Source: Clostridiales bacterium (GTDB lineage: Bacteria; Bacillota; Clostridia; Lachnospirales; Lachnospiraceae). Taken from it: a DNA stretch of 44,538 bases. A program made the position numbers and the translations under genes. Below the pieces are notes generated by a model, which saw only the letters and a program-made list of their open reading frames with translations, did not search any database and was not told the origin of the DNA. Positions 212 through 4,875 of this stretch are shown one piece after another; the stretch's first letter is position 1, and every line of letters starts with the position of its first letter. Where the stretch lies: NCBI GenBank assembly GCA_023663185.1, contig JAMPHY010000001.1, forward strand, positions 224,510-269,047. Direction: 5' to 3'.

Positions 212-1687
212 TTAACCGAGTAATGACAGTGCCAACTGGTTAGACTGATTTGCCTGTGCCAGCATTGATGTACCAGCCTGCTGTAAGATGTTGTTGTTAG
301 CATATTTAACCATCTCTGTAGCAATGTCGGTATCACGGATTGCTGCCTCTGCGCTCTGAGTATTCTCAACAACGTTATCAAGGTTATTGATGGTATGCTC
401 AAGTCTGTTTTGAATAGCGCCGAGTTCTGCTCTCTGGTCTGAAACTTTCTGCTGAGCTGCTTTAATTTTCTCAACAGCGTCCAATGCGTTATCATCATCA
501 GTTCCGTCAACCTTAAGTCCACTGATACCAAGTCCTTTAGCACTCATGGATTCGATATTCATGGTAATCTGATTGTTGGAAGTAGCGTCAGCACCTACAT
601 GAAGAGAGATGGAAAGTGCGCCGACCTTATCCTGTACTGCAACTACTTCTTCTTTCTTAAGAGTAGTCTCATTTCCTACCGCATCATATACCTTAGGCAC
701 GCCGCTCTTTACACTGACTTCACTATCATCCGCGTTATAATTGAAATACCTGTCTAAGTCATTGGCAGAAATCTTATTACCATCGCGGTCATAATAAGCT
801 GCAGTTACACCTGCTGCACTTAATGCTGCACCAGTAACATCTGTTGCGTTAAAAACTACGGTATCCGTATATTCTCCACTGGTTGCACTAGCCGCCTTAG
901 AGTATGTGCCTACGCCCGTAACTTTTGCTAAAAGGTGACCATCCTTATCCTGAATATTGAATGTTCCGGCGGTTTTGTCAGTTGTAACTATTTCAAATTT
1001 CTCTTTTGCCGAACCATTCAACTCAATAGAGTATTCTTTTACTGCTGCTTTAGTGGTCGTATCGTAATAGCTTCTTGCCGTTACAGAGAGTCCCTGCGCT
1101 TTCAATGAGTTTGCCAATTCATTCTGCGCATCCATAGTATATGCTTCCGGGCTTTCAAAGGTAATTTCCGGCTTAAGAGCTGTTACCGTGTCTTGTTTGA
1201 ATGTAGCAGTCGCGGTAGCGTCAGCATCAAATTTCGCATAGCTATAAGTATAAGCTTTTGTAGCGTCCTTATCACCCTTAAGCAGATAAGTCTCATTGAA
1301 CTTGGTTGTCTCAGCTACACGGTCGATTTCAGTTGTAAGCTGGTCAATCTCGTTCTGAACTGCGGTACGGTCAGACTCTGACATTGTTCCGTTTGCTGCT
1401 TTTACTGAAAGCTCGTTCATACGCTGAAGCATATCCTGAACTTCATTCAGAGCGCCTTCTGCGGTCTGTACTGCACTGATACCGTCCTGTGCGTTAGCTG
1501 CTGCCTGTGTAAGACCTCTTGCCTGACGTCTCATCTTCTCACTGATTGCCAATCCTGCTGCGTCATCTGCTGCACGGTTAATCTTATAACCTGATGACAA
1601 TTTCTCTGTGGACTTTGCCTGTGCGCTTGTTGTGATACCAAGCATTCTGTTGGCGTTCATCGCTGTAATGTTGTGTTGTACTATCAT
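212..1687 (-). CDS. hag: Flagellin (flagellar filament protein)
   Basis: This is the structural subunit of the flagellar filament, exported by the flagellar type III apparatus and polymerised outside the cell. The 491-residue protein starts MIVQHNITAMNANR and has the conserved N-terminal D0/D1 helices (about 1-140, with SSGYKINRAADDAAGLAISEK) and C-terminal helices (about 400-491, ending SLLG). These flank a poorly conserved, surface-exposed centre (about 140-400). The start has a strong AAGGAGGT ribosome binding site at 1694-1701. csrA lies 153 nt upstream on the same strand with no terminator between, so the two are probably co-transcribed. The leader carries a CsrA-type hairpin (1714-1729), as in Bacillus subtilis hag. 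No flagellar promoter lies immediately upstream of the pair in this orientation; the only good one is inverted, inside the neighbouring invertible segment. Confidence 0.96.
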   Translation of the reverse strand: MIVQHNITAMNANRMLGITTSAQAKSTEKLSSGYKINRAADDAAGLAISEKMRRQARGLTQAAANAQDGISAVQTAEGALNEVQDMLQRMNELSVKAANGTMSESDRTAVQNEIDQLTTEIDRVAETTKFNETYLLKGDKDATKAYTYSYAKFDADATATATFKQDTVTALKPEITFESPEAYTMDAQNELANSLKAQGLSVTARSYYDTTTKAAVKEYSIELNGSAKEKFEIVTTDKTAGTFNIQDKDGHLLAKVTGVGTYSKAASATSGEYTDTVVFNATDVTGAALSAAGVTAAYYDRDGNKISANDLDRYFNYNADDSEVSVKSGVPKVYDAVGNETTLKKEEVVAVQDKVGALSISLHVGADATSNNQITMNIESMSAKGLGISGLKVDGTDDDNALDAVEKIKAAQQKVSDQRAELGAIQNRLEHTINNLDNVVENTQSAEAAIRDTDIATEMVKYANNNILQQAGTSMLAQANQSNQLALSLLG

Positions 1688-1693
1688 AAAGTT

Positions 1694-1729
1694 ACCTCCT
1701 TGTGTTTGCCAGCCGTAAATCCGTTTACG
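1694..1729 (-). promoter_or_regulatory. Flagellin ribosome binding site with CsrA-type GGA-loop hairpin
   Basis: In the flagellin leader, the minus-strand sequence CGTAAACGGATTTACG (1729-1714) forms a perfect 6-bp hairpin whose CGGA tetraloop presents the GGA core bound by CsrA. A second GGA sits in the Shine-Dalgarno AAGGAGGT (1701-1694), 12 nt further on. B. subtilis hag uses exactly this two-site layout (BS1 hairpin plus BS2 over the ribosome binding site) for CsrA repression. That CsrA encoded next door binds here is inference. Confidence 0.7.
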
Positions 1730-1772
1730 ACCGTTGCTTTGTTTTTAGTTTCTTTTTGTTTTTATGAATAAT

Positions 1773-1840: not shown

Positions 1841-2125
1841 TTATGACGGTGCCGCTGTCTTTACCTTCTTGGCGGAATCGTTTACCACGATTTTTTTCTT
1901 ACGATACTTCTCCGGTAAATCGGGTACTGCATGGTAATGCGGTAGTTTTGCCTTTTCCTCCGGATTAGTCGTGTTATTCTCGATAACTTTGCTGCGGACT
2001 ACATTCAGTTCTTTGGGTGCGTCAATCATAATCCTCAAATGATTTTTGCTGCCGCCTAAGAAAACAATTTTTACGTCCTCCCCAATCATCAAGTAGTCTT
2101 CTGCGCTGACTGTAAGCCTTAACAT
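1841..2125 (-). CDS. csrA: CsrA-family translational regulator with C-terminal extension
   Basis: CsrA is a small RNA-binding dimer that blocks translation by binding GGA motifs; in Gram-positives its main target is flagellin mRNA. Residues 1-50 match the family (MLRL..., LMIGEDVKIVFLG, RIMIDAPKEL). The RNA-contacting L4 and R44 are present, but the usual LSRK start is LTVS, so R6 is lost. Residues 51-94 form a basic tail beyond the usual 60-75 residue length. The start at 2125 is set by an AGGGAGG ribosome binding site about 6 nt upstream. The gene heads the flagellin unit, and only 45 bp separate its start from the left recombination site at 2171-2199. Its promoter must therefore lie in the site or inside the invertible segment, so its transcription should depend on segment orientation. 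Confidence 0.85.
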   Translation of the reverse strand: MLRLTVSAEDYLMIGEDVKIVFLGGSKNHLRIMIDAPKELNVVRSKVIENNTTNPEEKAKLPHYHAVPDLPEKYRKKKIVVNDSAKKVKTAAPS

Positions 2126-2170: not shown

Positions 2171-2199
2171 ATGTAACATTTGTATATAAAATGTTGCAT
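2171..2199 (+). repeat. Left inverted recombination site of the invertible segment
   Basis: The site has an 11-7-11 structure: ATGTAACATTT, spacer GTATATA, AAATGTTGCAT. The arms are inverted repeats of each other (10 of 11 positions). A 24-bp core (2175-2198) is repeated perfectly in inverted orientation at 2948-2971. Two inverted arms around a 6-8 bp spacer is the standard core site of tyrosine recombinases. The asymmetric spacer fixes polarity, so recombination with the right copy would invert the DNA between them. Confidence 0.85.
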
Positions 2200-2226
2200 A
2201 ACAACATTTTGTTGTATAGTTAAAAT
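2194..2226 (+). promoter_or_regulatory. Possible recombinase promoter overlapping the left site
   Basis: TTGCAT (2194-2199) followed after 15 nt by TATAGT (2215-2220) is a sub-optimal sigma-A-like pair leading to the recombinase. A perfect ACAAC/GTTGT palindrome (2201-2215) lies between the boxes. The -35 lies inside the right arm of the recombination site, so recombinase bound there could repress its own gene. On the opposite strand TTGCAA (2235-2240) and TATACA (2213-2218), 16 nt apart, form a weak match reading towards csrA. Confidence 0.35.
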
Positions 2227-2254
2227 ACACACTATTGCAAAGGAGCGAAAAAAT

Positions 2255-2836
2255 ATGAGCACTACTTATCCAATTAAAGATGAAAAGCAACTTGAAAAAT
2301 TTGAGAGCTATTTTTTAGAGGTGAAGCCGATTTATCGGAACTATGCCATAATTGTTATGGGATTAAATACGGCTTTCAGAATCGGGGATTTATTATCGCT
2401 TAGATGGGAAGATGTTTATAATGAGAAAACCGGGTGCTTTAAAAAGCATATCCGGCTCAAAGAGCATAAGACCAACAAAGAGCGCTGCGTAGCGGTTAAT
2501 TCTGTCGTCCATAAAGTATTGACTACGCTGCAGGCTGAATATAATTATCAAGATGGCGCGCAATGTCTTTTTCCCGGCAGCAAAAATGCAACAACGCCGC
2601 TTTCACGCACACAGGCATTCCGCATTGTCAAGGAAGCTGCTGAATACGCCGGATTTGAAGAGCACATCAGTTGTCATTCGCTCCGCAAGACCTTTGGCTA
2701 TCAGGCTTGGAAGCAGGGCGTTCCGCCGGCTGTTATAATGGACATTTTCAATCATTCTTCCTACCGCATCACAAAACGCTATTTATGTATCGAGCAGGAC
2801 GACAGGGACAAGGTATATTTAGAAGTGTGTCTGTAG
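2255..2836 (+). CDS. Small tyrosine recombinase (DNA invertase)
   Basis: This is a catalytic-domain-only tyrosine recombinase of 193 residues. The catalytic set is visible: R42 in AFRIGDLL, H141-x-x-R144 in CHSLRKTF, H167 in FNHSS and the nucleophile Y176 (H-x8-Y). It lacks the separate N-terminal core-binding domain of most 280-400 residue phage integrases, resembling short invertases such as FimB/FimE. The start at 2255 follows an AAAGGAG ribosome binding site; a longer in-frame reading from 2180 would begin inside the recombination site and lacks one. The gene sits wholly between the two inverted sites, so it flips with them. Its likely job is inversion of this segment. An alternative, a remnant of an integrated element, is less likely because the active site is intact and the flanking sites match perfectly over 24 bp. 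Confidence 0.88.
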   Translation: MSTTYPIKDEKQLEKFESYFLEVKPIYRNYAIIVMGLNTAFRIGDLLSLRWEDVYNEKTGCFKKHIRLKEHKTNKERCVAVNSVVHKVLTTLQAEYNYQDGAQCLFPGSKNATTPLSRTQAFRIVKEAAEYAGFEEHISCHSLRKTFGYQAWKQGVPPAVIMDIFNHSSYRITKRYLCIEQDDRDKVYLEVCL

Positions 2837-2900
2837 AAGTATTGAAATTTCTGATAAATAGGCTTTGAAAATTATTTTTTAATTTTTTTAAATTCTGCTA

Positions 2901-2927
2901 TAAAGTATTTTAAAAGTGTTCCGATAT
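2901..2927 (+). promoter_or_regulatory. Sigma-D (sigma-28) flagellar promoter, facing away from flagellin
   Basis: TAAA (2901-2904), 16 nt, then CCGATAT (2921-2927) matches the B. subtilis sigma-D consensus TAAA-N14-16-CCGATAT in every position. Transcription would start near 2934 and run right, through the right site, to the terminator at 3026-3057. It is the only full match I found in the window. After inversion it would lie about 75-80 nt upstream of the csrA start, reading into csrA-flagellin. The sequence match is direct; its use is inference. Confidence 0.8.
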
Positions 2928-2946
2928 AAGTTATGTAAGCGTCAAG

Positions 2947-2975
2947 GTGCAACATTTTATATACAAATGTTGCAT
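2947..2975 (-). repeat. Right inverted recombination site of the invertible segment
   Basis: The structure is TGCAACATTT, spacer TATATAC, AAATGTTGCA, with perfect 10-bp arms around a 7-bp spacer that is the exact reverse complement of the left spacer. It is the inverted partner of the site at 2171-2199, with 24 bp of perfect identity at 2948-2971. Polarity is opposite, so recombination yields inversion, not deletion. Confidence 0.85.
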
Positions 2976-3025
2976 CTTTTTCTATTATAACTTTATCTGC
3001 AGGATTTTATACAGATGGTTTAAGG

Positions 3026-3060: not shown

Positions 3061-3089
3061 TTGTAAAAAACGGATTTCTGGCATATAAT
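3061..3089 (+). promoter_or_regulatory. Sigma-A promoter of the DUF4143 ATPase
   Basis: TTGTAA (3061-3066), a 17-nt spacer and TATAAT (3084-3089) form a good housekeeping promoter right after the terminator at 3026-3057. Transcription would start near 3096, giving a leader of about 125 nt that contains the 33-bp repeats. Confidence 0.7.
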
Positions 3090-3092
3090 ATT

Positions 3093-3191
3093 ATAAAGAT
3101 TTGGGGATTTTTGACATATAGCAGCAAAAAGATTTTGGGATTCTTGACATATGATAACAAAAAGATTTTGGGATTTTTGACACATCACTGT
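3093..3191 (+). repeat. Three tandem 33-bp repeats in the ATPase leader
   Basis: Three copies of a 33-bp unit (core GATTTTGGGATTTTTGACAT) are aligned by TTGACA at 3111, 3144 and 3177. A degenerate fourth copy, with CTGGCA at 3078, overlaps the promoter. The TTGACA motifs have no -10 box at a proper distance, so they are not three promoters. On the minus strand the repeats are open in frame (an 11-residue ICQKSQNLF-type repeat), but I see no ribosome binding site and do not call a gene. Confidence 0.75.
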
Positions 3192-4605: not shown

Positions 4606-4875
4606 AAAACCGTGCAGCCGGGGCGTTAGCGGTGCCCTGTACCTACAATCCGCTCTAGTAGGGGTGATGCTTGATTGAGGGCTTTTGATTTGTGTAGCTG
4701 CCCTTTATAAGTGGCGTTGAAGTTTGAGTCTTGCGCAATGGGAATCTATGAACCGTGTCAGGGTGGGAACACAGCAGCACTAAGTAGAATCTCCCATGTG
4801 CCGTGAGGGTGCTTGGCGGAGTTAACTGTAAAGGTAACGTGCATGAATCTGGTTCGAGAGAAAGCGCACGGTTTT
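4606..4875 (+). ncRNA. ffs: Signal recognition particle RNA (large, Gram-positive type)
   Basis: The RNA scaffold of the signal recognition particle binds Ffh and targets nascent membrane proteins. The diagnostic apical helix 8 is at 4756-4780: GTCAGG, a GTG-GGAA-CAC tetraloop hairpin and the CAGCAGCAC asymmetric loop. The 5' end AAAACCGTGC (4606-4615) pairs with the 3' end GCACGGTTTT (4866-4875), closing a molecule of about 270 nt. That is the size of the Bacillus/Clostridium type that includes an Alu domain. A consensus promoter sits directly upstream. The radical SAM gene begins 36 nt downstream. Confidence 0.9.

Follow-up and report, generated by a model that had tools for sequence, protein, structure and literature searches.

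Inverted sites, recombinase and csrA-flagellin unit

An inverted pair of 29-bp candidate recombination sites, neither assigned to a strand, is present in the window, by which we mean the whole 44,538-nucleotide stretch of DNA that was analysed. The csrA-proximal site (2171-2199) has the sequence ATGTAACATTT-GTATATA-AAATGTTGCAT, with arms at 2171-2181 and 2189-2199 around the 7-bp spacer GTATATA (2182-2188). The distal site (2947-2975), inverted relative to the first, has the sequence GTGCAACATTT-TATATAC-AAATGTTGCAT, and its spacer (TATATAC, 2958-2964) is the reverse complement of the proximal one. The two share a 24-bp perfect inverted match, the longest in the whole window at spacings of up to 3 kb; in dinucleotide-shuffled versions of the window (n = 60), the longest inverted match averaged 13.4 bp and never exceeded 16 bp. 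The original prediction had described such a pair, with 24 bp of perfect identity and an asymmetric 7-bp spacer facing its exact reverse complement, and on these points it was correct. Its description of the sites as "perfect 11-7-11" stands as far as the layout is concerned but not as to perfection: the 11-bp arms differ by one mismatch inside each site, and the sites are near-perfect only. Inverted core sites with a spacer of 6-8 bp that is the same in both copies, as found here, characterize tyrosine-recombinase invertons.

The sole gene between the two sites (2255-2836, plus strand, with an ATG at 2255) encodes a small tyrosine recombinase of 193 aa, a predicted invertase that matches Pfam PF00589 Phage_integrase at 2.2e-25. 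An alignment of 45 of about 95 recombinases that could be translated, the window's included, bore out the earlier claim of a full catalytic set: R42, K72, H141, R144 and H167 are present in 45/45 sequences and Y176 in 44/45, which corresponds to the R-K-H-R-H-Y set of tyrosine-recombinase invertons. Phage_integrase was the only Pfam match at 1e-3, and no serine recombinase (resolvase) domain was found at that threshold. At a threshold of 0.01, the only solved structures with a sequence match were those of a XerA, a XerC-like recombinase and an integrase (2e-5 to 5e-5). The NCBIfam model PRK09871, "tyrosine-type DNA invertase", aligns to the protein over 28-177. Like FimB and FimE, the protein is a tyrosine recombinase of about 200 aa, but its scores lie far under their curated cut-offs (46.9 versus 222 bits for PRK09871 and 35.3 versus 221 bits for PRK09870). 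The fim recombinases lie outside their switch, whereas here the recombinase gene lies inside the segment.

A csrA-flagellin unit abuts the left site, as had been predicted. Its first gene (1841-2125, minus strand) encodes a divergent CsrA paralogue of 94 aa (Pfam CsrA, 2.1e-16), and its second gene (212-1687, minus strand) encodes a 491-aa flagellin with Pfam Flagellin_N and Flagellin_C matches, predicted to be phase-variable. The CsrA of the switched unit is longer than canonical CsrA, divergent from it, and under the NCBIfam csrA cut-off (37.7 of 73 bits), so RNA binding by this paralogue is not assured. The genome contains four csrA matches, the window's among them, and FliW adjoins a canonical csrA. 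In CsrA-regulated flagellins, a GGA is found in a leader hairpin loop and at the Shine-Dalgarno sequence. The window flagellin has both, a leader hairpin of CsrA-site type with GGA in the loop (1710-1733, minus strand) and a GGA at the Shine-Dalgarno position. Of 66 distinct flagellin leaders, 59 had a GGA placed in or at a hairpin loop, versus 3/66 in a control with one mononucleotide shuffle per leader.

A match to the sigma-D (sigma-28, FliA) promoter consensus, TAAA-N16-CCGATA, is found at 2901-2926 on the plus strand, 20 bp inside the right site. Taken alone, the motif is no better than chance (2 matches in the window versus 0.8 expected). For the switched units, a strict sigma-D motif was found only inside the segment, the search covering the window and, for the other two modules of this genome described below, up to 700 bp from the recombinase. 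The genome has a gene for the FliA sigma factor (271 bits). At the level of motifs, the segment therefore holds both a recombinase gene and a sigma-28 flagellin promoter, as does a Hin-type segment. The motif faces out through the distal site and away from csrA and the flagellin gene, so the window represents the OFF orientation; inversion would put the promoter upstream of the csrA-flagellin unit. The outward promoter of the original prediction is in place as a sigma-D motif, and the prediction was silent on its sigma-D type, on its pointing away from the unit and on the OFF state of the window. It also made no mention of the terminator-like character of the distal site, and the further modules of the genome lay beyond its view.

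The distal site, together with the T-rich tract that follows it, resembles an intrinsic terminator (2944-2988, plus strand). The stretch 2935-2990 folds with an energy of -15.9 kcal/mol (z -5.2). Two further features were observed on this side of the segment: a three-copy direct repeat with 33-bp spacing (GGATTTTTGACATAT...), at 3072-3185, just past the distal site, which is unexplained, and a large bacterial SRP RNA (Rfam RF01854) at 4610-4871 on the plus strand.

Conservation of the module among relatives

Two paralogous modules are present in the same genome, on contigs 4 and 50. Their recombinase is 69% identical, and each comes with a separate pair of inverted sites, a sigma-D motif inside the segment, a csrA and a flagellin gene. 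All three modules of the genome are in the OFF orientation. Their spacers differ (GTATATA, GTATGAA and GTATATG), and cross-recombination between the copies should therefore be poor. The flagellins of the modules have common ends and a differing middle; the difference is clearest for the window flagellin, while the contig-4 and contig-50 copies closely resemble one another. Altogether, the genome has eight Flagellin_N matches, one of which is weak and, judging from where it lies, probably represents FlgL. A fixed sigma-D motif precedes two of the four non-switched flagellins, lying 160 bases upstream of the contig-3 flagellin and 83 bases upstream of one of the three on contig 19; no sigma-D motif was found within 500 bases of the remaining two. 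Inspected by eye, the leader of the contig-3 flagellin also contains a GGA hairpin.

Searches with the recombinase, in a sample of one genome per species, gave matches below 1e-40 in 40/77 genomes of the genus (a looser count, 73/77 at 1e-3, includes Xer-like recombinases), in 30/397 genomes of the family at 1e-30, and, by profile, in 75/392 genomes of the order. The loci analysed are part of the matches from these searches; matches not longer than 400 nt or with E above 1e-15 (L071, L077 and L079 among them) and exact duplicates of recombinase DNA were excluded. At a stage of 96 loci, 73 were flanked by csrA or flagellin genes, and a site pair was detectable in 65 of the 73; the neighbour gene is directed away from the segment in all 65. 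The final set comprised 127 distinct recombinase loci spanning several genera and families, 83 of them csrA/flagellin-flanked and 71 of these with a pair. In the other 12 of the 83, some of which lie at contig ends, a site pair was not found.

These numbers bear on the view that the segment is a remnant of an integrated mobile element, with a phage-type integrase and its attachment sites. The window recombinase does match a PHROG integrase family (1.7e-48), and, as judged by eye, the three modules of the genome have different neighbours. However, the sites are inverted and not direct, the cargo of the segment is only a promoter, and csrA or flagellin genes adjoin 83 of the 127 recombinase loci across several genera and families. 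We consider a mobile-element origin of this kind extremely unlikely.

Some loci depart from the common layout. At L106, L107 and L111, two or three tandem csrA-flagellin units are found downstream of a single switch. The recombinases of L070, L072, L073, L074 and L075 are 44-47% identical to that of the window and have site pairs of their own, and these loci adjoin operons that look, from gene names assessed by eye, glycan- or nonulosonate-related, not flagellin. At L143 (G455:C1, 882-8725), two convergent flagellin genes and two glycosyltransferase genes occupy a 7.1-kb invertible-looking stretch, whose inverted sites share the spacer TGTATCA; the promoter motif (at 882) and the recombinase gene are both outside it. 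Inversion of this stretch is predicted to swap the expressed flagellin.

To compare spacers within pairs, sites were located with a spacer-blind motif, and the 48 of 73 loci with exactly one motif on each side were used. Spacers were equal within the pair in 47/48 loci, the window included, while 2000 shuffles of partners gave equal spacers in a mean of 3.2 and a maximum of 10 loci. The only unequal pair, at L086 (G023:C87), has TGTGTGA and TGTATGA, one base apart. A count based on inverted repeats (58/64) is biased by the way pairs are found, and some of its centres are misplaced; the motif-based count is preferred. Per base, paired sites mismatched at a rate of 0.003 within the spacer, compared with 0.245 for the four outer-arm bases adjoining it and 0.042 for the four on the inner arm.

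The promoter motif is similarly constrained. Among the 65 loci with a site pair, a relaxed sigma-D motif was found just inside the distal site, directed outward, in 62, and at the csrA-proximal end in one; six control windows gave 0-1/65. With the strict motif, the corresponding numbers were 40 (distal) and 1 (csrA-proximal). A distal-side target gene for the promoter was considered and rejected: by eye, the distal neighbours of the three copies in the genome look unrelated, and the predicted terminator would block the transcript.

Of the 65 paired loci, 52 or 51, depending on the count, were used to assess terminator-like properties. The ten bases past the distal site contained, on average, 7.35 T, compared with 1.47 on the csrA side (n = 51), and about 3-4 T per ten bases were found farther out from the distal site in the same 51 loci. 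A run of at least four T within 12 nt followed the distal site in 46/51 loci and the csrA-side site in 0/51, and T content was higher after the distal than after the csrA-side site in 52/52. When the hairpin was closed with the distal as opposed to the csrA-side outer arm, its stability was higher in 43 of 52 loci, equal in six and lower in three; the ON form used for this comparison was constructed in silico, except at L106.

Could the repeats serve only to end transcription, or as operators through which a recombinase-like gene regulates itself, without any inversion? The distal site could well act as a terminator, and the recombinase gene follows shortly after the proximal site. Yet such a view gives no reason for the identity of the loop (i.e., the spacer) within pairs, the csrA-side copy has no T-tract, and loci in the ON orientation exist, as shown below. 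We regard this explanation as very unlikely.

Orientation of the segment

The orientation of each locus was assigned from a sigma-D motif no more than 110 bp inside each site; a looser pattern produced a spurious match in a coding region. In the final set of 71 paired loci, which includes the three of the window's genome, 67 were OFF, two were ON, and two had no sigma-D-like motif. Three OFF loci have the opposite recombinase-promoter arrangement, with the recombinase gene reversed and the promoter again directed away from the unit. L071 is not part of this tally, and L143 and L196, where a flagellin gene lies beside the recombinase gene with no usual pair, were not counted as ON.

One ON locus, L066/L106, is from genome G072. 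Here, the recombinase gene and the sigma-D motif read into csrA and the flagellin gene, and at both junctions the inner arm adjoins the outer arm of the opposite flank, i.e., the outer arms have been exchanged. The csrA-flagellin unit of L106 is orthologous to units at OFF loci, its flagellin being 94% identical to that of L111 and 92% to that of L107; recombinase identities are 81% and 85%, respectively. Conservation of the distal flank between L106 and its OFF orthologues was looked for and not found, and the orientation was therefore called from the csrA side and the junctions. The second ON locus, L190, is in G668, a genome from another family with four modules, of which L191, L192 and L193 are OFF; the recombinases of L192 and L193 are identical, and G668 has a weaker form of the sigma-D motif (ACGATA). 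Both orientations thus occur among related loci, between species (L106) and between copies within one genome (L190).

The original prediction called for a comparison of orientation across relatives and would have been contradicted by a single fixed one. Orientation is not fixed, although 67 OFF against two ON loci approaches this, an extreme skew that gives no sign of free, frequent inversion. The excess of OFF loci could possibly come from biased recombination, from selection in the gut, or from use of one module at a time. It is also what would be seen if the switch had decayed and, though formerly invertible, were now effectively locked OFF in the window strain and most of its relatives. 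A few broken or mutated recombinases fit such decay: at L071 (G042:C19), the recombinase gene is broken over two frames, with sites and promoter motif retained, and at L025 (1501-2079), Cys replaces the catalytic Tyr while the site pair is retained, possibly yielding a locked switch. Against this, the catalytic set is complete in 44/45 aligned recombinases, spacers stay equal within pairs while outer arms drift, and the promoter and terminator features are conserved. Together, these features suggest selection on switching; we consider a locked switch quite unlikely.

As far as sequence comparison can tell, the earlier view of the locus, in which a tyrosine recombinase inverts DNA to switch a flagellin unit, is supported by an anatomy conserved in dozens of loci, by spacers equal within pairs, and by two loci of opposite orientation. 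We conclude that the segment is very probably a functional phase-variation switch for the csrA-flagellin unit, captured in the OFF state in this assembly.

Proposed mechanism and relation to known switches

The account that we favour, and hold with considerable confidence, is that of a self-contained invertible segment that switches a csrA-flagellin unit by flipping a sigma-D promoter. Between its two 11-7-11 sites, the segment of about 0.8 kb holds a small tyrosine recombinase and the sigma-D promoter. Strand exchange by the recombinase within the 7-bp spacer would flip the segment; catalysis, like inversion in the window strain, is inferred. In the OFF state, the promoter would face away from csrA and the flagellin gene, and the distal site with its T-tract would end the transcript at once. 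In the ON state, the promoter, presumably dependent on sigma-D, would read across the csrA-proximal site, free of a T-tract, into csrA and the alternative flagellin gene. The co-expressed CsrA would probably bind the GGA hairpin in the flagellin leader and tune or repress flagellin translation in the manner of FljA.

The hairpin is predicted to stop both the sigma-D and the recombinase transcripts in the OFF state. With a terminator-like distal site and T-tract, OFF would be doubly silent, while ON is predicted to read through. The main role of the T-tract may, however, be to end the recombinase transcript. Release of a CsrA-sponging small RNA in the OFF state was also considered; between the -10 element and the hairpin, the window contains no GGA. 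The switched CsrA may also repress other flagellins, as FljA does. A wider proposal, which we offer tentatively and find somewhat harder to accept than to doubt, is a multi-module antigen system: self-flipping sigma-D segments, kept apart by their spacers, would each express a flagellin together with a CsrA that silences translation of the other flagellins, giving one filament type per cell, and the distal site would act as a split terminator that keeps OFF tight.

In Salmonella, the Hin recombinase gene and a flagellin promoter lie in one invertible segment (the H2 segment) and in the same direction; the fljBA-fliC system uses a sigma-28 promoter, and the switched unit encodes FljA, a post-transcriptional regulator of flagellin. 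The module described here is alike in having a recombinase gene and a sigma-28 promoter inside the segment, both in one direction, with CsrA in the place of FljA. It differs in that the recombinase belongs to the tyrosine and not the serine family, the sites have a 7-bp spacer, csrA precedes the flagellin gene, the distal site is terminator-like, and three or four modules are present in the two genomes examined in detail (G000 and G668). A Hin-like layout built on an unrelated tyrosine recombinase, as originally proposed, is borne out, and a serine recombinase domain like that of Hin was not found among the Pfam matches. The csrA-flagellin switch is convergent with Salmonella Hin/FljBA and not a member of that family; the same layout seems to have arisen independently, built around another enzyme and another post-transcriptional regulator.

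The nearest published case, among the matches listed, is that of the hin-csrA-tldR-fliC loci of Flavonifractor plautii and Oscillibacter (PMC13418256, available portion). As described there, inversions of ~120 bp involve a region that holds the FliA promoter, a CsrA of the csrA-tldR loci is enriched at a fliC 5' UTR, where a predicted stem-loop contains the CsrA motif, and one Oscillibacter strain has four such loci. A csrA-flagellin unit with a FliA promoter on inverting DNA is common to both systems; in PMC13418256, unlike here, the recombinase is a serine Hin encoded beside and not inside the inverting DNA. The RNA-guided repressor TldR is also part of those published loci. The RecV switches of Clostridioides difficile, as presented in the available parts of PMC5386303 and PMC2784873, likewise combine a tyrosine recombinase with inverted repeats, and one of them controls flagella. 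There, one RecV serves several switches, with the early flagellar operon and cwpV as targets in place of a csrA-flagellin unit; the flgB flagellar switch acts after transcription initiation (PMC5386303). For cwpV, a terminator is predicted in the OFF transcript, about 5% of cells are ON, and the switch DNA is promoterless, the proposed OFF terminator arising from that DNA (PMC2784873). The invertible DNA of a RecV switch carries neither a promoter nor a recombinase gene; in the segment described here, both are inside.

The word "recombinase" does not occur in the available portion of PMC3720852, on Eubacterium and Roseburia flagellins, nor the word "tyrosine" in that of the review PMC11868660. 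A tyrosine-recombinase promoter switch of a csrA-flagellin unit was not found among the matches listed from open-licence full texts, judged by titles and the starts of abstracts; within the same open-licence matches, little was found on how Lachnospiraceae vary their flagellins. Judged by these matches, the arrangement is new within tyrosine-recombinase invertons.

Lachnospiraceae flagellins are immune targets in the gut. A switch of this kind would let one cell line keep several flagellins and display them in turn, and the family of recombinases that would drive it recurs across a bacterial order. The orientation of such switches could be read straight from metagenomic reads, and the finding opens a simple test of whether pressure from the host leads gut bacteria to conceal or exchange their flagellins.
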